Assembly (NCBI GenBank): GCA_902801515.1
Contig: CADCII010000026.1
Coordinates: 1-46,010 of the forward strand
DNA from: an uncultured Lachnospiraceae bacterium
GTDB taxonomy: Bacteria; Bacillota; Clostridia; Lachnospirales; Lachnospiraceae
Direction of reading: 5' to 3'
DNA: 46,010 bases
The position numbers and the translations under genes are program-made. The notes beneath the pieces were generated by a model, which saw nothing but the letters and a program-made list of their open reading frames with translations, was not told where the DNA came from and did no database searches. Positions within the stretch are counted from its first letter, which is position 1. Every line of letters starts with the position of its first letter. This document shows positions 757-27,304 of the stretch, in pieces.

Positions 757-1488
757 TTACACGCGGATCGCGGTCTTGAGGGCGATCTCCATCATTTCGT
801 GGAAGCTTTCACGGATCTCCTGCGGATTCAGGTGGTCTCCGGTGAAAACATGATCGGAGATCTGGAACATTGCCAGTGCCTTCTTGTGGAGGCGCATCGC
901 TGTCAGATACAGACCCGCAGATTCCATTTCCACGGCAAGGATGCCGAGATTTTTGGCTTTCTCATTTATCTTCATATCCGGATCCGGATAATAGAAATAA
1001 TCGGAAGAGAGAACACTGCCGATAGAAGTCTTTACATTCATTTCATCAGCGATATTGGCTGCGTCGCGAAGCATCTCCCAGGTTGCGCACGGTGCTACAT
1101 GGCCGGGCATTGCCAGACAGTCTGAATATGCGGAGTTGGTGGTGGCGGTCATTGCGAGAACCAGGTCACGGACCTTAACATCGTCGGCAATCGCGCCGGC
1201 GGAACCGATCCGGATGATCGCTTCTACACCGAAGAAGCTGAACAGCTCCGTGGCATACAGCGTGATGGAAGGGATTCCCATGCCGCTTCCCATGACAGAC
1301 ACTTCTTTGCCTTCATACAGACCTGTGTAGCCGTACATTCCGCGAACATCGTTAAACAGAACCGGATTCTCCAGATAATGCTCAGCAACATACTTTGCAC
1401 GGAGCGGATCACCCGGCATCAGCACACATTTCGCAACGTGTGTACCGTCTTTGACTTCGATGCACTGTGATGGTGATGTCTGACCCAT
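757..1488 (-). CDS. deoD: purine nucleoside phosphorylase, DeoD type
   Basis: A cytosolic nucleoside phosphorylase that cleaves purine (deoxy)ribonucleosides with phosphate to free base and (deoxy)ribose-1-phosphate, in purine salvage. The 243 residues are the usual DeoD length. Visible motifs are the phosphate-binding MPGDPLRAKY (24-33), GSAGAI (95-100), VEMES (186-190) for ribose/base contacts, and SDH (211-213), whose Asp protonates the purine. A longer frame opens at 1578, but the ATG at 1488 has an ideal AGGAGGT nine bases upstream and matches the family N terminus. A terminator lies just downstream. Confidence 0.93.
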   Translation of the reverse strand: MGQTSPSQCIEVKDGTHVAKCVLMPGDPLRAKYVAEHYLENPVLFNDVRGMYGYTGLYEGKEVSVMGSGMGIPSITLYATELFSFFGVEAIIRIGSAGAIADDVKVRDLVLAMTATTNSAYSDCLAMPGHVAPCATWEMLRDAANIADEMNVKTSIGSVLSSDYFYYPDPDMKINEKAKNLGILAVEMESAGLYLTAMRLHKKALAMFQISDHVFTGDHLNPQEIRESFHEMMEIALKTAIRV

Positions 1489-21233: not shown

Positions 21234-21262
21234 TTGATTTATGCAATGCAAAGATATATACT
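21234..21262 (+). promoter_or_regulatory. promoter of the HTH-GNAT gene
   Basis: TTGATT (21234-21239) and TATACT (21257-21262), 17-base spacer. The expected transcript start (~21269) is just ahead of the structured element, so that element would form almost the whole 5' leader. Confidence 0.65.
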
Positions 21263-21275
21263 ATATGCATTACGG

Positions 21276-21413
21276 CCTCAGTAGGGTGTCCCCGCCTCTG
21301 TAGGCGGGGGACACCCTACTGAGGTGTAGCCTCCGGCGGATGCCACGACCGCGCAGTGGAAGGCCGCTAAAGCGGCCGCGCGGTCGGGCGCAAGTACGCC
21401 GATGGCGTACTTG
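21276..21413 (+). ncRNA. three-stem structured element, copy A
   Basis: Stem 1 (21276-21296 with 21303-21324): 21 bp, one bulge, loop TCTGTA. An invariant linker GCCTCCGGCGGAT (21329-21341) follows. Stem 2: CGACCGCGC/GCGCGGTCG (9 bp) with a one-sided bulge AGTGGAA and an inner stem GGCCGCT/AGCGGCC. Stem 3: CAAGTACGCC-GAT-GGCGTACTTG (10 bp). A second copy at 27155-27269 has the same layout with compensatory changes. It ends six bases before the AGGAGG of the next gene. The family is not one I can name; it may be a leader RNA or a mobile REP-like element. Confidence 0.7.
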
Positions 21414-21430
21414 AAAATAGGAGGGGCGCA

Positions 21431-22465
21431 ATGATGAAAAAAGAAGAAAAACCGAGGGAAGAGATGCCGGGAGAAAAGGATCAGAGAAAAGAGAAACAGC
21501 GGGAGCTGATAGAGATTCGCAGGCTGACCGGTATGAACCGGAAGGAATTCGCGCTGGAATATGATATTCCTTATCAGACCATAACGGACTGGGAACTGGG
21601 ACACCGCAGGGTTCCGAAGTATTTTCTCAGGCTGCTTCGGTATAAGGTGATGCTGGAGGAGGGCAGAAGATTTGACGCTGTGTCTCCCGCACAGGCAGCA
21701 GGGATGAAGGAAGTGAGGCGGCAGATGTCGCTTGACTACTGCTGCAGTCTGAAAGATCTGGAAGAGGGGAGCGGGAATCTTTTTACGGAATATCATCCTA
21801 TGGAAGGAAGACGCCGGTTTAATGAGAAGGAAGAAACGTTCCTGAAGATTGCGTCTTTCAAAGGGCGGCTGCTGTTTACCGGAAGGCCGGATATTATCCG
21901 GGAGCTGCAGGGCAGGTATGCTCAGACTGAAGCTGCCTGGTTTATGGAACCGGGGAATATGCGGGAACTGAATGAACTGACCGGACGCTACGGATACCGT
22001 ATCTCACATCTGCACCCGTTCTATGTGGCATTTGAACAGACGCCAGCCGTATATGATCAGTATGAGGTCCGGCTCCTGGAGAGAGCGGATATCGAGGAGT
22101 TCCGCGGCGACAGCCGCTTCACCAACGCGTTTTCATTTCAGCCGGCTGCTCCGGACGAGATAGGGATATCCGCCTCAAAGGACGGCAGGATCCTTGCCAT
22201 GGCAGGAGCCAGCGGCGACAGTCCGCTGATGTGGCAGATCGGGATCGACGTTGTTCCGGAGGCAAGGGGGCTGCATCTGGGCAGGCTGCTGGTCACACTG
22301 CTGAAGAATGAGATCCTGAAGAGAGGCCGTATACCTTATTACGGGACCGCATTTTCTCATATTCTGTCCCAGAACATTGCGATAGACAGTGGTTTTCGTG
22401 CCTGCTGGACGGAGCTTGTCGCGTCAAAAACGGGGGATTTCACTGAAAATCAGCATTCAGAATAA
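21431..22465 (+). CDS. HTH-XRE / GNAT acetyltransferase fusion protein
   Basis: A 344-residue fusion. After a charged N terminus, an XRE-type helix-turn-helix occupies ~24-73 (RLTGMNRKEFALEYDIPYQT, then WELGHRRVPKYFLRLLRYKV). A GNAT domain follows: FTEYHPMEGRRRF near 118, and the acetyl-CoA motif ARGLHLGRLL at 278-287, then AIDSGFRACW. It may be a DNA-bound regulator that acetylates a small molecule or protein, or an acetyltransferase with a partner-binding HTH. The AGGAGG lies seven bases before the ATG, immediately after the structured element; a second ATG follows at 21434. The target is unknown. Confidence 0.82.
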   Translation: MMKKEEKPREEMPGEKDQRKEKQRELIEIRRLTGMNRKEFALEYDIPYQTITDWELGHRRVPKYFLRLLRYKVMLEEGRRFDAVSPAQAAGMKEVRRQMSLDYCCSLKDLEEGSGNLFTEYHPMEGRRRFNEKEETFLKIASFKGRLLFTGRPDIIRELQGRYAQTEAAWFMEPGNMRELNELTGRYGYRISHLHPFYVAFEQTPAVYDQYEVRLLERADIEEFRGDSRFTNAFSFQPAAPDEIGISASKDGRILAMAGASGDSPLMWQIGIDVVPEARGLHLGRLLVTLLKNEILKRGRIPYYGTAFSHILSQNIAIDSGFRACWTELVASKTGDFTENQHSE

Positions 22466-22553
22466 GAATTAAGATATTTTTAGGTGAGATATTTTGAATT
22501 TCGTGGTAAACTAGCGTGGGGAGTTATGAATACAGAAAAGGGGTGATTCTCAA

Positions 22554-23408
22554 TTGAAGAGAGTACGGTTGCTGCTGCTTCTGCTTGTGATCATCATAGT
22601 GCTGCCGTCATACTGCGGCGCTGCCGGTGTGGATGATCCCGTGACCAGGAAGGCTGCGAAGTTCGGTTCGGTCAAGGTGTCCGGGACGGAAACCGTCGCA
22701 CGGCGCGCGATCAGAAAATCACACGGCAAGAAGGTGAACCTGTCCGCCTGGGGGCTGGACGGGGCTCTTGACTATGTGCACGGAATGTACTATATGGCCA
22801 AGGTCAAGACGACATATGAGGCCAAGTCCGCAGATTCTGTGAAGAGCAAGGTCAAGGTTAAAAAGGGGCAGAAGGTCGTTATCCTCTATTATCCACGCCG
22901 CAACGGCAAAGCTGTCTGCCGCCTGAAAAACAGGCGGACCGTCTATATTCCGGTCAAAAAATTCAAAGTACTCTATTATATCTATAATTCCTCCACGGCC
23001 TACACTGATGCGCAGATTGAAGAGTGGGTGGCTTCCAGACACATTACCAGCAAGACAAAATATATGTTCGTGGCGTCCAAGTTCAATCAGCACGGATGGA
23101 TCCTGACAAAGGTCTCAGGGAAATGGATATGCAAGTATGTCCTGAATATCACGACCGGGGCCTATACCGGCGGCGGTCTTCCGAACGACTGTTATTCTCT
23201 CAACAGCTGTTCGATCCAGACGCACTATATCCATAAGAAAGACATGGGGAGAGGCATCAGTTATGCTTCAAAAGCCGGCGGCAATCAGATTCATTACAGG
23301 AAAAATGTTCTGTATCCGTCCACTCACGGCTGTATCGCAATGAGGCATACGGATTATAATTTCGTATATTGGTATCTTCCATACAAGACAAGGGTAGTAC
23401 TGTTCTAA
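22554..23408 (+). CDS. L,D-transpeptidase (YkuD family), second copy
   Basis: A 284-residue exported YkuD enzyme, starting at a TTG with AAGGGGTGA seven bases upstream. Residues 1-23 are a signal peptide (RLLLLLLVIIIVL). The region 35-150 is Lys/Val-rich without a recognised domain. The catalytic domain is C-terminal with THGCIAM (257-263), Cys260 as nucleophile; the final YLPYKTRVVLF closes the fold. It is divergent from the copy at 6341. It stands first in a run of three exported or leader-bearing proteins, suggesting a cell-surface role. Confidence 0.82.
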   Translation: MKRVRLLLLLLVIIIVLPSYCGAAGVDDPVTRKAAKFGSVKVSGTETVARRAIRKSHGKKVNLSAWGLDGALDYVHGMYYMAKVKTTYEAKSADSVKSKVKVKKGQKVVILYYPRRNGKAVCRLKNRRTVYIPVKKFKVLYYIYNSSTAYTDAQIEEWVASRHITSKTKYMFVASKFNQHGWILTKVSGKWICKYVLNITTGAYTGGGLPNDCYSLNSCSIQTHYIHKKDMGRGISYASKAGGNQIHYRKNVLYPSTHGCIAMRHTDYNFVYWYLPYKTRVVLF

Positions 23409-23436
23409 AAAACAGATAATTAAAGGGGTGTATATA

Positions 23437-24705
23437 ATGATTAGAAAAACTTACAGAAAAATCGCAGTTATTATGCTCGCGTCAGTTATGATGTGCGCTT
23501 CTGTCTCCGCGGGTCAGGAGACGGGAAATATCCTGCAGGCAGCAGATGAGGGCAGCCCACAGGAACCGGAGACCCAGCCGCCGCAGCCGGAAACGCAGCC
23601 GCCGCAGCCGGAGACCCAGCCGCCGCAGCCGGAAACGCAGCCGCCGCAGCCGGAGACGCCTCCACAGACCGAAGCGCCCGCACCGCAGACGGAAGCGCCT
23701 GCACCGCAGACGGAGACGTCCGCGCCTGAAACAGCTTCCGGATCAGATGACGGCTCAGAGACACAGAATCATTCAACAGCGATCCCGAAGGATCCGACAG
23801 AAAAGAAACTGAAACAGGATATCGTCGATGCCCATGAAGATGAGGAAGGCTTTTCCGTAAGTATTAACGGCGGAGAGTCCGTAGTGATCGAGCCGGATAA
23901 GAATTTCCGCACGGTCGTCGACGCCATCACCGGAGGAAGTTTCGGATACAAGATGGACTATGTCCGTCCGGGAACCGGTCTGAGAGAACCGATCGAGATC
24001 GAAGAAGACGGGACGATCAAGAGCATCTTCGCCAAGGTAAATACCATGCCGGGAACTGCCTGCGATATCGTGCTGTATATCAATAACGGCAATTCACTGT
24101 GGCTGAATATGAAAGTTCAGGGAACGCTTGAAGACAACGATGCGGAGATCGTGTTCAAGTCTTTGTCCGATGTAAAGCCCTGCACCGTATCGTATGACGC
24201 GAACGGAGGCAGCCTTACGGATTCCATCAGCATAGTGAGACGGAAGGGCGAATGGTACAGTCATTTTGATATGAAGGCGTCAAAGGATGGAGAGAGCTTC
24301 TGCGGATGGTTTGACGGGCCTGGTGATGACGCGAAGAGAATCTTTCCGACAGATACCGTAGAAAAGGACATTACCCTGTATGCACATTACAGTCCGTACG
24401 GTGTGCAGGTCGTTGCCTTTGATTTCGGATTCTCTACTGCGGGCGACAACGGCAGCCTAATACATCATCTGATCATCCCGAAGAAGGAAGACGGCACGTA
24501 TGATGTTACCGATTATCCAGTCTTTGAACATGACGGAAAAGTAATCGGCGGATGGATCGATGAGGCCGGCAATCCGGCAGGTTTGACCGGTATGAGCGGA
24601 GACAGGACTCTGCGTGCGGACTGGAAAGATCCTTCCGAGATCCAGCCCAAAGAGCCGGAAGCCGGGACCGTGACCGAGACAGAAGCGGCCGCTGAAGAAG
24701 GCTGA
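23437..24705 (+). CDS. secreted protein with Pro-rich repeats and InlB/Flg_new-type B-repeats
   Basis: A 422-residue surface or secreted protein. Residues 1-28 are a signal peptide. Residues ~42-100 are low-complexity: PETQPPQ repeated at least four times, then EAPAPQT units, typical of a wall-spanning linker. Two Listeria-Bacteroides-type repeats follow: CTVSYDANGGSLTDS…FCGWFDGPG…ITLYAHY, and a second near the C terminus (VIGGWIDEAGNPAG…TLRADW). No LPXTG or second membrane segment is seen. GTG at 23428 overlaps the ribosome binding site AAAGGGGTG, so ATG 23437 is preferred. Confidence 0.8.
   Translation: MIRKTYRKIAVIMLASVMMCASVSAGQETGNILQAADEGSPQEPETQPPQPETQPPQPETQPPQPETQPPQPETPPQTEAPAPQTEAPAPQTETSAPETASGSDDGSETQNHSTAIPKDPTEKKLKQDIVDAHEDEEGFSVSINGGESVVIEPDKNFRTVVDAITGGSFGYKMDYVRPGTGLREPIEIEEDGTIKSIFAKVNTMPGTACDIVLYINNGNSLWLNMKVQGTLEDNDAEIVFKSLSDVKPCTVSYDANGGSLTDSISIVRRKGEWYSHFDMKASKDGESFCGWFDGPGDDAKRIFPTDTVEKDITLYAHYSPYGVQVVAFDFGFSTAGDNGSLIHHLIIPKKEDGTYDVTDYPVFEHDGKVIGGWIDEAGNPAGLTGMSGDRTLRADWKDPSEIQPKEPEAGTVTETEAAAEEG
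23566..23655 (+). repeat. 21-bp in-frame tandem repeats (PETQPPQ)
   Basis: Units beginning CCGGAGACCCAGCCGCCGCAG-like, at 23566, 23587, 23608 and 23629, alternate GAGACC and GAAACG. They keep frame, so copy number can vary without breaking the gene. Confidence 0.85.
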
Positions 24706-24858
24706 AAGATATATTGTTAATTCCCGGAAAAAGAGAATTTAATCTGGCAGGAAAGATCCTGGTCACCCGGGTGAATTCTTCTGTGGATTCTTCTTTGAAC
24801 GTCCGTATATTAATAATGTCTGGAACAGATAAGTATCCGGCGGAAAGGGAAGGTTATC

Positions 24859-25161
24859 ATGGCAGATTTTGAGAAGCTCAATGAGCGGGAACTTGAAAAT
24901 GCAGCAGGCGGACAGTCCGGAGCTGGTGTTTACAAGAGGGTAACACACCTGAAGGCAGAGTATCTGCCGGTCCGCAATGCCCCTGTGGAGGATCCCGCTA
25001 ACGAGATCAAGGGCACACAGCTTAGAAATGGAGATGTCGTGCTGATCACCGGCGCAACTGTGCGGGGAACTACTGCCGGCGGCGGCAAAGCAGCCTATGT
25101 GTGGGTATTTGTGCCGAGGACAGGCGCTTCCGGATATGTGAATACTGAATTTCTGGCATAA
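24859..25161 (+). CDS. double-glycine leader protein with SH3-like domain
   Basis: A 100-residue protein whose first 18 residues, MADFEKLNERELENAAGG, match a bacteriocin-type double-glycine leader (ELxxxxGG). Such leaders are cut and exported by peptidase-containing ABC transporters. The remaining 82 residues look like a bacterial SH3 domain: YLPVRNAPVEDPANEIKGTQ, LRNGDVVLITG, and WVFVPRTGASGYVNTEFLA, often wall-binding. No transporter or modification enzyme is nearby, so export would depend on a distant system. GGGAAGG precedes the ATG. It could be a wall-targeted antimicrobial, a signalling peptide or a structural protein; function not established. Confidence 0.72.
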   Translation: MADFEKLNERELENAAGGQSGAGVYKRVTHLKAEYLPVRNAPVEDPANEIKGTQLRNGDVVLITGATVRGTTAGGGKAAYVWVFVPRTGASGYVNTEFLA

Positions 25162-25165
25162 GCAG

Positions 25166-25190
25166 CAGGCCGCCGCGGCGGCCTGTTTTT
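25166..25190 (+). terminator. terminator of the double-glycine leader gene
   Basis: A 20-bp self-complementary sequence CAGGCCGCCGCGGCGGCCTG followed by five T, four bases after the stop codon. The stop of the converging YolD gene abuts the T-run. Confidence 0.88.
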
Positions 25191-25612
25191 CATATCCCGG
25201 CTTTTCCGGCATCTGTTCTCTTATCGATACTGAGAATATCGGCGATCGGGACAGCGGTATTGCGCACACGCAGGGTCTTCAGTTCATAGCTGATCCCGGT
25301 CAGAAGTCCGCTCTGGGTGATGTATGTACCGATGCGGCCGCGCGGCGTGAGACGGAACGCATAGTAGGTTACTGTCACAAAGTCGCCATTTCTCAGACTC
25401 AGGAGCTTTTCGTTGAGAAGATGCGCTTCATCGTCGGAAAGTTCGATACGGTCTTCATTTTTCAGTTCTTTTTCTTCCAGCGTTTCGTACAGTCCTTCCA
25501 GAGCATTGAACGGAAGGAAGATCTTTGCCCGGCTGCTTTTATCCATGTGCGGGCGGTGATTCTGCTTGTCGTAGTTGGTCCATGTAACACGGTCATCGCC
25601 CGAGCTTGCCAT
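25190..25612 (-). CDS. YolD-like family protein, partner of Y-family polymerase
   Basis: A 140-residue protein of the YolD type, found next to UmuC/DinB-like polymerases in Firmicutes and thought to assist or regulate them in the SOS response. Features: SRAKIFLPFNALEGLYETLEE near residue 27 and the C-terminal SH3-like barrel VTVTYYAFRLTPRGRIGTYI…IADILSID. The ATG at 25612 has GGAG nine bases upstream and lies four bases after the polymerase stop codon; an earlier ATG at 25627 is less supported. Cotranscribed with the polymerase under the LexA box. Confidence 0.8.
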   Translation of the reverse strand: MASSGDDRVTWTNYDKQNHRPHMDKSSRAKIFLPFNALEGLYETLEEKELKNEDRIELSDDEAHLLNEKLLSLRNGDFVTVTYYAFRLTPRGRIGTYITQSGLLTGISYELKTLRVRNTAVPIADILSIDKRTDAGKAGI

Positions 25613-25616
25613 AGTA

Positions 25617-27122
25617 TCACACTCCATTCTGCCCGGCGGGTGGTTTGTTACCCGCCCGGGAGGCTCTTTCAGACCGGCGCAGGTCTTTACCGGCTTTGTG
25701 GCCTCCGATCTGGCAGTTTCTCTCCATCATGGTGCCGGCACTCAGGAGATTCATTCCTTTTAACACTGCATTTTTTCCATAGCGGCTCTTCAGTGACAGG
25801 ACACTGCCCTGCAGTTTTCTTCCTGAGATCTGGCGATCCAGATCTCTTTCCGGATCTGACAGCATCTCCCCCTTTTCATCAAACAGCGAGAACTGGTAAC
25901 CGACATTACCTTCCCCGCAGATCGGACAGGAGAGCCCGATCCTGCGGACCGGGGCATCCTGCCGGGTCGTTCTGAGGTACGCTTCTGCGACAAGGGGACG
26001 CCAGATCTCGTCAGAAGAGGTGTGGTGCCGGGAATGTACGGTGCTTCCGGTATAAAACGCGGGCAGTCCGTCCTGGTCTCTGAAAGTATGGCTGTATGAG
26101 ACGAAGAACGTAATCGTATCTGTCAGAACGTGCCGGTCCGCCATCTGCAGACAGAGCTGGTCCGTCATCTCTTTTATGATGACATGCGCCTCCTCAAATG
26201 AATAATCCCGCAGAAGAACCTGTCCCAGGGAGAGGGAGCGCCCTTTGGGGCGATACCCCCTGATATCCTTCATGCCGACGGTTTCAACGCCGAAGGAATG
26301 GTCGATCAGGATCTCTGCGTCAATGCCGAAGGTTTTGTAGAGCAGGTCATCATTGATCATGGCGGCTCTGGAGATATCATGCATGGTAAAAAGACCCATG
26401 GAGGCGAGCCGCCTTGACTTTCCCCGCGCGATCATCCAGAAGTCGGTGAGAGGGCGATGGTCCCAGAGCAGCTCCCGGTAGCGGTCTTCATCCAGAATCC
26501 CGATAAAATCAGGGGCTTTCTTGGCGGTGATATCGAGAGCGATCTTGGCAAGATAGAGATTGGTTCCGATCCCGCAGGTGGAGCGAATCCCTGTGCGGTC
26601 CAGCACGGCATTCATTATCTCTGTGCCAAGCTGTTTTGGCGACATCTCATACAGATCCAGGTAGTCTGTCACATCGATGAAAGCTTCATCGCAGGAGTAG
26701 ACATGGATATCCTCTTTGGAGAAATACTGCAGGTATACCCCGTAGATCTCCGCGGAGCACTCTTCGTAATGCGCCATCTGCGGCGGCGCCGTGATGTAGT
26801 CAATGGTTTTCGGGATCTCGAAGATCCTCGCCCGGTTTTTGACGCCAAGCTTCTTGAGCGCAGGGGAAACAGCCAGGCAGATCGTCCCTTCACCGCGGGA
26901 AGGATCCGCTACGACAAGTTTTGCCGTCATGGGATCCAGACCCCTTTCCACACATTCCACAGAGGCATAGAAACTCTTCAGGTCGATGATGATATAGACC
27001 CTGTGCGTTTCATCATGTTCCCAGAACCTGGTCGGATCCCCGTAAACAGATGTATTTTTAGTCAAAATTGCACGGTTGTCACAGGCGGCATGCAGAGATG
27101 CCGGTTCATTTGCAGAAAGCAT
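25617..27122 (-). CDS. Y-family DNA polymerase (UmuC/DinB-like), error-prone
   Basis: A translesion polymerase of 501 residues. The palm motif YIIIDLKSFYASVECVER (43-60) carries the first metal Asp (47), and SCDEAFIDVTDYL (144-156) the catalytic Asp-Glu pair (146-147). The helix-hairpin-helix and little-finger regions follow (IRSTCGIGTNLYLAKIALDI; KGRSLSLGQVLLRDYSFEEA). A C-terminal CPICGEG suggests a small metal-binding element. The extra ~40 N-terminal residues before the palm are longer than usual; ATG 27122 has AAGGGGTGA upstream and is retained. It is followed four bases later by its YolD partner. Transcription is predicted to be LexA-repressed. Confidence 0.88.
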   Translation of the reverse strand: MLSANEPASLHAACDNRAILTKNTSVYGDPTRFWEHDETHRVYIIIDLKSFYASVECVERGLDPMTAKLVVADPSRGEGTICLAVSPALKKLGVKNRARIFEIPKTIDYITAPPQMAHYEECSAEIYGVYLQYFSKEDIHVYSCDEAFIDVTDYLDLYEMSPKQLGTEIMNAVLDRTGIRSTCGIGTNLYLAKIALDITAKKAPDFIGILDEDRYRELLWDHRPLTDFWMIARGKSRRLASMGLFTMHDISRAAMINDDLLYKTFGIDAEILIDHSFGVETVGMKDIRGYRPKGRSLSLGQVLLRDYSFEEAHVIIKEMTDQLCLQMADRHVLTDTITFFVSYSHTFRDQDGLPAFYTGSTVHSRHHTSSDEIWRPLVAEAYLRTTRQDAPVRRIGLSCPICGEGNVGYQFSLFDEKGEMLSDPERDLDRQISGRKLQGSVLSLKSRYGKNAVLKGMNLLSAGTMMERNCQIGGHKAGKDLRRSERASRAGNKPPAGQNGV

Positions 27123-27154
27123 GAAGTCTCACCCCTTTCGCACACCCCGTTTTC

Positions 27155-27269
27155 AACTCAGTCGGGGAGTCCCCCGACTGAGTTAAAGCCTCCGGCGGAT
27201 CGCAGCCGCGCTCAGAGGAAGGTGCTTCGCACCGAGCGCGGCGCGGCAAGAACGCCGTTGGCGTTCTTG
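27155..27269. ncRNA. three-stem structured element, copy B
   Basis: Stem 1: AACTCAGTCGGGG-AGTC-CCCCGACTGAGTT (13 bp). Linker AAAGCCTCCGGCGGAT is shared with copy A. Stem 2: GCCGCGCTC/GAGCGCGGC (9 bp) with bulge AGAGGAA and inner GGTGC-TTC-GCACC. Stem 3: CAAGAACGCC-GTT-GGCGTTCTTG (10 bp). Described on the plus strand to match copy A. The polymerase promoter would transcribe it as the reverse complement, from the first bases of the message to ~33 bases before the start codon. Confidence 0.7.
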
Positions 27270-27270
27270 A

Positions 27271-27304
27271 ATTATACTTTAAAACAGAACATATGTTCTG
27301 TCAA
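27271..27304 (-). promoter_or_regulatory. SOS promoter with LexA box
   Basis: The 18-bp perfect palindrome ACAGAACATATGTTCTGT (27284-27301) contains GAAC-ATAT-GTTC, the Bacillus-type LexA (DinR) operator. It fills the spacer of a minus-strand promoter: TTGACA (27299-27304) with TAAAGT (27276-27281), 17 bases apart; a TATAAT also lies at 27271-27276. It drives the polymerase-YolD pair. Confidence 0.85.

Follow-up and report, generated by a model that had tools for sequence, protein, structure and literature searches.

A PATE-like, dispersed and folded repeat with fixed ends in gut Lachnospiraceae and Bacillales

Insertion sequences (ISs) of the IS200/IS605 type have a conserved left target tetranucleotide, a conserved final tetranucleotide at the right end, hairpin ends and lagging-strand insertion (PMC6006769), and the palindrome-associated transposable elements (PATEs) of Haloquadratum lack terminal repeats, carry near-terminal palindromes, generate no duplication and undergo core deletion (PMC3119063). 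Thousands of candidate RNAs are reported from the gut (PMC8040213). We analyzed a 46,010-nucleotide stretch of DNA from an uncultured Lachnospiraceae bacterium (assembly GCA_902801515.1, contig CADCII010000026.1, forward strand; hereafter the window), which holds two copies of a folded repeat, at positions 21276-21413 and 27155-27269. They belong to an apparently unnamed high-copy family with exact ends in gut Lachnospiraceae and Bacillales. The element is non-coding, it moves, and it is PATE-like by the features tested. It is probable, with some reserve, that it is non-autonomous and travels in single-stranded form, mobilized by a Y1 (IS200/IS605-type) transposase supplied in trans.

Mobility was revealed by empty sites. 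At the locus of copy 1, the congeneric genome G018 (genomes and loci carry our working numbers, G and L) reads GCATTAT-AAAAATGG, and the element is absent. Copy 2 is also absent from the orthologous site in G018, where the flanks align less cleanly, and this genome gave no match at an E value up to 0.01 to R1, a covariance model built from six copies of the window's own genome. The third empty site is in Siminovitchia, where G066 (GAAATCTGCA-AAGAA) and G064 (GAAATCTGTA-AGAA) lack the element carried by G061. A target duplication is not visible at the three loci compared, beyond one possible A, and the Siminovitchia site is exact within one A. The evidence from empty sites comprises these three loci, the alignments of three further Siminovitchia copies being not interpretable. 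A second Siminovitchia site, which had been thought empty in G066, holds a remnant of the terminal hairpin P3 described below.

The ends of the element were defined from 50 distinct insertions in Siminovitchia terrae, taken from 61 matches longer than 120 nt and aligned within 4 bases of both ends. At the left end, TTAAC is conserved at 98-100% per base and the preceding T at 84%; at the right end, ATTTGAT is conserved at 96-100% per base, and there is no strong conservation outside. Terminal inverted repeats are absent, the ends being TTAAC... and ...TTTGAT. The left target is short and T-rich, being [T]TTAA in Siminovitchia and mainly of the TTCA or TTTA type among the Lachnospiraceae copies inspected; for the exact start of the element within the left-flank and foot bases, the few empty sites are the sole guide. 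The first-pass annotation of this DNA had suggested, beside a structured RNA, a REP/MITE-like mobile element. The mobile nature is upheld by dispersed copies, empty sites and fixed ends. The element is not a REP as described, nor is it a classical miniature inverted-repeat transposable element (MITE) derived from a DDE transposon, which would have terminal inverted repeats and a target duplication, neither of which is seen here.

The window copies measure 138 and 115 nt, respectively, and both are core-deleted. They are present where the first-pass annotation had placed them and fold far beyond shuffled sequences (minimum free energy z-scores of -9.74 for copy 1 and -6.89 for copy 2; 0 of 200 shuffles equally stable for either). 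Each contains, in this order, (i) the P1 hairpin, (ii) the linker GCCTCCGGCGGAT, (iii) P2 and (iv) P3 (10 bp), with no spacer between P2 and P3. P2 is built of 4 bp, a single-A bulge, 9 bp, a one-sided AGNGGAA bulge and an inner hairpin. The fold agrees with the order read earlier from the letters, namely stem 1, linker, stem 2 with the AGNGGAA bulge, and a 10-bp stem 3. The parts are located as follows:

21276..21324, + strand: copy 1, P1 hairpin with hairpin B kept and the inner repeat deleted (fold; comparison with full-length copies; absent in G018)
21329..21341, + strand: copy 1, linker, consisting of a mini-hairpin GCC-TCC-GGC plus GGAT (pattern, fold, row conservation)
21341..21390, + strand: copy 1, P2, with the AGTGGAA bulge at 21355-21361 and the inner hairpin at 21362-21377 (fold, covariation)
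21391..21413, + strand: copy 1, P3 terminal hairpin, element end CTTG(A) (fold, comparison with G018, covariation)
27155..27184, + strand: copy 2, P1 hairpin in core-deleted form, left flank TTCA at 27152-27155 (fold; absent in G018)
27188..27200, + strand: copy 2, linker, mini-hairpin plus GGAT (pattern, fold, row conservation)
27200..27246, + strand: copy 2, P2, with the AGAGGAA bulge at 27214-27220 and the inner hairpin at 27221-27233 (fold, covariation)
27247..27269, + strand: copy 2, P3 terminal hairpin, element end CTTGA(A) (fold, comparison with G018, covariation)

The complete element has a length of about 190 nt, with 187 nt between the anchors CTTCATTCAG and GCATTT in 22 of 25 parsed copies (5 further copies were left unparsed in this measurement). 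In its full 5' domain, P1 encloses hairpin B and a T-arm-like hairpin (GGGGTTCAAACCCC), plus a second partial copy of the P1 5' arm. Copy 1 of the window retains hairpin B and copy 2 only the P1 arms; stem 1 differs between them, as had been observed earlier, because they have lost different parts of this domain, of which their P1 is a remnant. A tRNA-like reading of the T-arm-like hairpin was rejected, since ARAGORN finds no tRNA in L390. We also considered a longer autonomous element sharing the 5' end; the partial matches in L348 and L223 had the appearance of copies that are degenerate or have lost their core, and a further partial 5' match lies in L365, at the edge of the locus.

In 97 pattern-found copies (104 minus those at contig ends and duplicates), both P1 and P3 were detected in 80, P1 alone was lost in 6, P3 alone in 8, and both in 3. 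These numbers bear on retrotransposition of the element RNA by target-primed reverse transcription, in the manner of group II introns or LINEs. Several copies do look 5'-truncated right behind a stop codon with their 3' end intact, and the copies of G033 lie (by eye) in T-runs behind terminator-like hairpins, the kind of site at which group IIC introns insert. However, loss of P1 alone is no commoner than loss of P3 alone, so the count lends no support to the truncated appearance or, with it, to a 5'-truncating mode of retrotransposition. An intron-like domain did not come to notice either, and we consider this route very unlikely.

The first-pass annotation looked to a covariance model search for further copies, and R1 supplied them. 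In the own genome it hits 13 places when E values up to 1 are admitted and 11 under a limit of 0.01; under the latter limit, 15 of 61 genomes, the own genome included, have matches, 62 of which are in G028. In S. terrae, all 40 scored candidates, of 613 first-look candidates, match at 94-100% identity, and we estimate from the fetched loci several hundred copies per genome; one 19.9-kb stretch carries 7 of them. Of the Siminovitchia genomes searched, five (G061 and G063-G066) contain copies, and G067 yielded none at E up to 1e-20. A pattern scan of the public genome collection gave at least 114 stretches. Among the 80 listed, 11 are of Bacillales (Siminovitchia terrae, Sporosarcina, Bacillus, Fredinandcohnia and a Bacillales metagenome-assembled genome, MAG), and the others are Lachnospiraceae, Eubacterium, Clostridiales and Faecalicatena records, mostly MAGs. 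One of the 80, which belongs to neither group (L224), is probably a chance pattern match; it is among the 97 copies scored above for P1 and P3, and maybe also in the orientation and right-end counts given below. A phylum-wide sample of 398 genomes yielded no match beyond the window's own, which is a weak negative because 11 candidates were scored per genome, and the own genome itself gave 9 places, not 13, at the stricter E limit used. The plasmids, phages, viral contigs (exact pattern) and E. coli searched gave no match. In what was searched, the element is thus patchy and chromosomal. The family is dispersed and mostly intergenic: 74 of 80 copies of the non-Bacillales set lie in no spanning open reading frame of 100 aa (frames called heuristically).

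Some insertions have particular surroundings. Copies of Sporosarcina and Fredinandcohnia (L155, L171) are located inside conserved operons, between atpA and the ATP synthase gene that follows it and between mraZ and rsmH, respectively, as judged from translations. The G033 copies inspected (L077, L135-L143) are embedded in T-runs, in most cases immediately after a terminator-like hairpin, and T-runs border several of them left and right. A second structured module, TCTCGCCTCCGGCTCGGTCGGTGCTAAACGC...GGCACGCAGCACC, is nested in or beside copies at varying places (L087, C54:5015-5148; L085, L072, L122, L131), and by eye it looks like another small mobile hairpin element. Four loci (L088, L089, L318, L319) contain an extra module of ~55 nt, GTCCACGACGTCCAGTGGACG...GATCGACCGAAGCGGAGCGGAGA, in the 5' strand of P2.

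We also inspected the conservation of the fold. The linker 13-mer alone is a weak signal in the window (3 matches at up to 2 mismatches, a number equalled by 27 of 100 shuffles), and the linker combined with the bulge pattern occurs at 7 places in the own genome, compared with 0 for a reversed-pattern control. Across the six copies of the own genome, both partners have changed in 11 of 27 pairs, and 95.7% of cells pair versus 76.8% after shuffling. The first set of rows was larger, comprising 110 distinct rows out of 115 from 15 genomes, collected at an E limit of 0.5 that admits some weak rows. Here all 27 pairs show double changes, so that the covarying stems seen earlier in two copies are confirmed; 94.5% of cells pair versus 64.4% when shuffled, and the covariation score is 0.607 versus 0.149 and is lost when the partner is slid by 1-3 columns, although all these figures lean toward the model structure because the alignment was fitted by the covariance model itself. 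A second set (91 distinct of 108 rows) presents the same covariation picture; conservation was judged on the first set only, since the second was partly found with a pattern that fixes the unpaired bases. The first-pass annotation had named a known IS end as a possible explanation of the pairing, and no IS end with the same structure occurs among the loci fetched.

In the 110 rows, the unpaired core (CCTCCGG, GGAT, the bulged A and AGNGGAAG, N excepted) is mostly 77-99% conserved, compared with 38-70% at many stem positions and 84-97% at others, figures that are inflated because R1, with which the rows were found, also scores sequence. The linker, previously called invariant, belongs to this conserved core, but it forms a small hairpin of its own with a covarying outer pair (GCC-TCC-GGC in 38 and CCC-TCC-GGG in 12 of the 110 rows; 33 rows remained unparsed and the remainder are mostly imperfect). 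A U-G pair is kept in 81 of the 97 rows having both bases, while neighboring pairs swap freely. Outside this pair, G-U (83) and A-C (74) mismatches are about equally frequent, as expected if individual copies decay neutrally. In a full-length copy, the two strands have nearly the same folding energy (-72.2 kcal/mol for the minus strand and -70.9 kcal/mol for the plus strand). At gathering and relaxed thresholds nothing on the element reaches an Rfam cut-off, which accords with the earlier failure to name a family; P1 gives weak matches to microRNA families, far below the cut-offs of those families.

These observations raise the question of a mobile structured RNA, similar to a bacterial SINE or a guide RNA, in which the transcribed core (the mini-hairpin, GGAT, the AGNGGAAG bulge and a possible UCC-GGA pseudoknot) would be bound by a protein or a ribonucleoprotein that mobilizes it or puts it to use. 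Conservation of unpaired bases above that of many stem positions is what such an RNA would show, and the kept U-G pair would fit it as well, but both features would also suit a single strand of DNA that folds and is recognized by a transposase. The surroundings of the window copies also bear on this reading, since each lies just 3' of a promoter-like site:

21234..21262, + strand: promoter-like TTGATT-17-TATACT (consensus scan), just 5' of copy 1
27276..27304, - strand: promoter-like TTGACA-17-TAAAGT with GAACATATGTTC at 27287-27298, which we take to be LexA-box-like; reads toward an impB/mucB-family polymerase gene

Copy 1 begins 13 bases past the first site, which is largely kept in the empty-site relative G018 (alignment), and stops shortly ahead of the probable ribosome-binding site of a gene at 21431; the product of this gene has a helix-turn-helix by eye, and Pfam yields only a sub-threshold GNAT match. 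Copy 2 is placed, in antisense, between the minus-strand site and the start of the impB/mucB-family DNA polymerase gene. If the putative promoters work, both copies would be part of 5' untranslated regions. Farther off, positions 1-605 of the window contain the last part of a 23S rRNA gene and, after it, five tRNA genes. The antisense position of copy 2 relative to its promoter-like site speaks against a transcribed functional core, as do the near-equal numbers of G-U and A-C mismatches outside the kept pair, the equally good fold of the minus strand and the lack of an Rfam match. The copies are, on the other hand, mostly co-directional with genes. On balance, a mobile structured RNA seems unlikely.

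The leader position of the window copies could also be attributed to a host cis-regulatory RNA or attenuator that selection maintains in place. The patchy distribution, the empty sites seen in congeners and the neutral mismatch ratio all speak against this; furthermore, no recurrent class of neighboring genes was noticed (an impression, obtained without a count). We rate it as the least probable of the explanations, with hardly any chance of being correct.

The orientation of the copies is strongly biased. Between tandem gene pairs of the non-Bacillales set, 37 copies are oriented with and 6 against the direction of the genes (p = 1.6e-6), and the corresponding numbers in S. terrae are 19 and 2. 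Firmicute genes mostly follow the direction of replication, and for this reason the bias is also to be expected if the top strand inserts into the template of the lagging strand. In combination with the fixed left target, the fixed right end, the hairpin ends and the lack of duplication, this orientation makes the element similar to IS200/IS605 elements and PATEs.

From this likeness we infer the following mode of transposition, in which excision of a single strand, Y1 catalysis and a guide role of the P1 foot are the conjectural parts. Replication would expose the top strand in single-stranded form on the lagging-strand template, and the strand would fold. A Y1 (HUH) transposase supplied in trans might then bind the hairpins, with the conserved core (the CCTCCGG hairpin, GGAT and the AGNGGAAG bulge of P2) possibly acting as a recognition platform, and would make one cut behind the left target and another behind the terminal TTGA(T/A); the strand would be re-inserted at another T-rich target. 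Target choice may use pairing of the left flank with the 3' foot of P1 (TTTA with TAAA; TTCA with TGAG), and inserted copies would mostly decay neutrally thereafter. In the RNA fold of the full element, base pairs form between TTTAA of the left flank and TTAAA of the P1 foot. Among Lachnospiraceae copies, co-variation of foot and left flank is partial (TTGAG with TCAA in 4 of 7 cases, ATAAACG with TTAT in 8 of 8), and such pairing is only suggestive because pairs were obtained for few copies.

Several observations weigh against transposition by a Y1 enzyme in this way. The commonest Lachnospiraceae type has one mismatch (the TTAAAG foot occurs with a TCAA flank in 7 of 8 cases), and of 161 copies only 115 have a right end reading TTGA(A/T) or TTTGA. 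There is no transposase whose occurrence follows that of the element: within the genus, the carriers G001, G002, G008, G010 and G016 gave no Y1 match, the carrier G000 has only a Y1 fragment of 26 residues, and G005 and G018 have Y1 without any copy, in a comparison of draft genomes of which several are incomplete. Among the fetched Y1 and TnpB loci, no autonomous element with the same ends was seen. R1 matches none of the intact Y1 loci; it matches one interrupted Y1 locus (L386) and four TnpB loci, all of S. terrae, which is, by our estimate, about what the copy density in this species predicts. The IS200-type Y1 locus of G061 has no end in common with the element beyond a resemblance to TTTTGAT by eye. 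In IS608 as described (PMC6006769), the guide is located 5' of a subterminal hairpin, unlike here, where the hairpins are at the very ends and the suspected guide is 3' of P1. Finally, the inner fold with its conserved loops exceeds the needs of a PATE, and the kept U-G pair leaves room for a role as RNA.

The enzyme could instead be a RAYT-type (TnpA_REP-like) protein that moves the repeat as a REP-like element. RAYT-like Y1 genes (our reading of frames of 189-283 aa) are present in G028, G033 and G061, which all carry the element, and visual inspection of L387 (~930-1060, reverse strand) showed a degenerate stretch similar to the 5' domain, which lies upstream of the G028 gene at a distance of a few hundred bases. 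BLAST with seven 5' domains missed this stretch, though, and found only weak L387 matches among that locus's own repeats. Repeats other than this element immediately border the three RAYT-like genes, and R1 detects no 3' domain in their loci; in G022, Y1 frames of 235 and 256 aa occur with no element match. Moreover, the element is not a 20-50 nt palindrome with a GTAG head, as REPs are defined (PMC8266576). Mobilization by a RAYT is accordingly very improbable in our view. The RAYT-like Y1 genes of L387, L384, L276 and L388 are flanked by distinct repeats of their own (GGGGACGGAGACAGGTTCC, ACATGTCCCAAACCGAAATGG and others).

Another conceivable origin is a remnant of the guide (omega) RNA of TnpB from an IS605/IS1341 element. 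Hairpin B of full Siminovitchia copies is similar to the hairpin located behind TnpB genes in these bacteria, TnpB occurs in 6 of the 13 genomes searched, and the left flank TTTAA looks like a transposon-adjacent motif (TAM). Nevertheless, the carriers G000, G001, G002, G010, G028 and G033 gave no PF07282 match, and the P2-P3 core is not found at the TnpB right ends inspected. An overlap of the element with the 3' end of tnpB was sought as well and did not occur among the TnpB loci inspected. Descent from an omega RNA is, in our opinion, extremely unlikely. In L348, a hairpin near-identical to Siminovitchia hairpin B (CAGAAGACTCCCACTTC...GTAAGTGGGAGATGAATGC) adjoins a tnpB-like stretch, a possible hint of IS605 ancestry.

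If the transposase is not of the Y1 type at all, the element might represent a new mobile class: a folded RNA or single strand of ~190 nt with a conserved unpaired core, present in hundreds of chromosomal copies in distantly related Firmicutes, using an enzyme other than the known Y1, DDE or reverse transcriptase types, and choosing its target via its own 3' foot. We consider this rather doubtful, and prefer a PATE-like element mobilized in trans by a Y1 transposase.

The part of the freely readable literature on Lachnospiraceae repeats, PATEs and Bacillus repeats that was covered listed no description of the element. A fragment of the core sequence led only to two papers whose titles and abstracts concern unrelated subjects. 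The Siminovitchia copies are closely similar, which suggests recent activity, and therefore both the transposase behind the movement and the function of the inner fold are directly testable in this host. The family also has a lesson for surveys of structured RNAs, in that a transposon can yield strong covariation and conserved loops.

With known systems the element compares as follows. Its high copy number, extragenic location and hairpin with an irregular stem are shared with the repetitive extragenic palindromes (REPs) and bacterial interspersed mosaic elements (BIMEs) associated with RAYTs (PMC8266576). Unlike these repeats of 20-50 nt, it is ~190 nt long, has several hairpins and no GTAG head, and is not directly flanked by a RAYT gene. 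The bcr1-bcr3 repeats of the Bacillus cereus group (PMC3446304) are likewise intergenic, MITE-like Bacillales repeats ending in untranslated regions, a likeness drawn by description only.

As in IS200/IS605 elements such as IS608 and ISDra2, there are left target and right terminal oligonucleotides, hairpin ends and an orientation of the lagging-strand type; unlike them, the element has no internal tnpA or tnpB and is too short to encode a transposase. It differs from PATEs in that its palindromes reach the very ends, in that no related IS605 element was found among the loci fetched, and in its interior covarying fold, which is common to Lachnospiraceae and Bacillales and goes past what PATEs or REPs are described to have. 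Membership in the PATEs is unproven because no cognate IS was found. The shared features are nonetheless numerous: like PATEs, the element is short and non-coding, lacks terminal inverted repeats and target duplication, has palindromes near its ends and a short left targeting oligonucleotide, forms core-deleted derivatives, and moves without an obvious intact tnpA.

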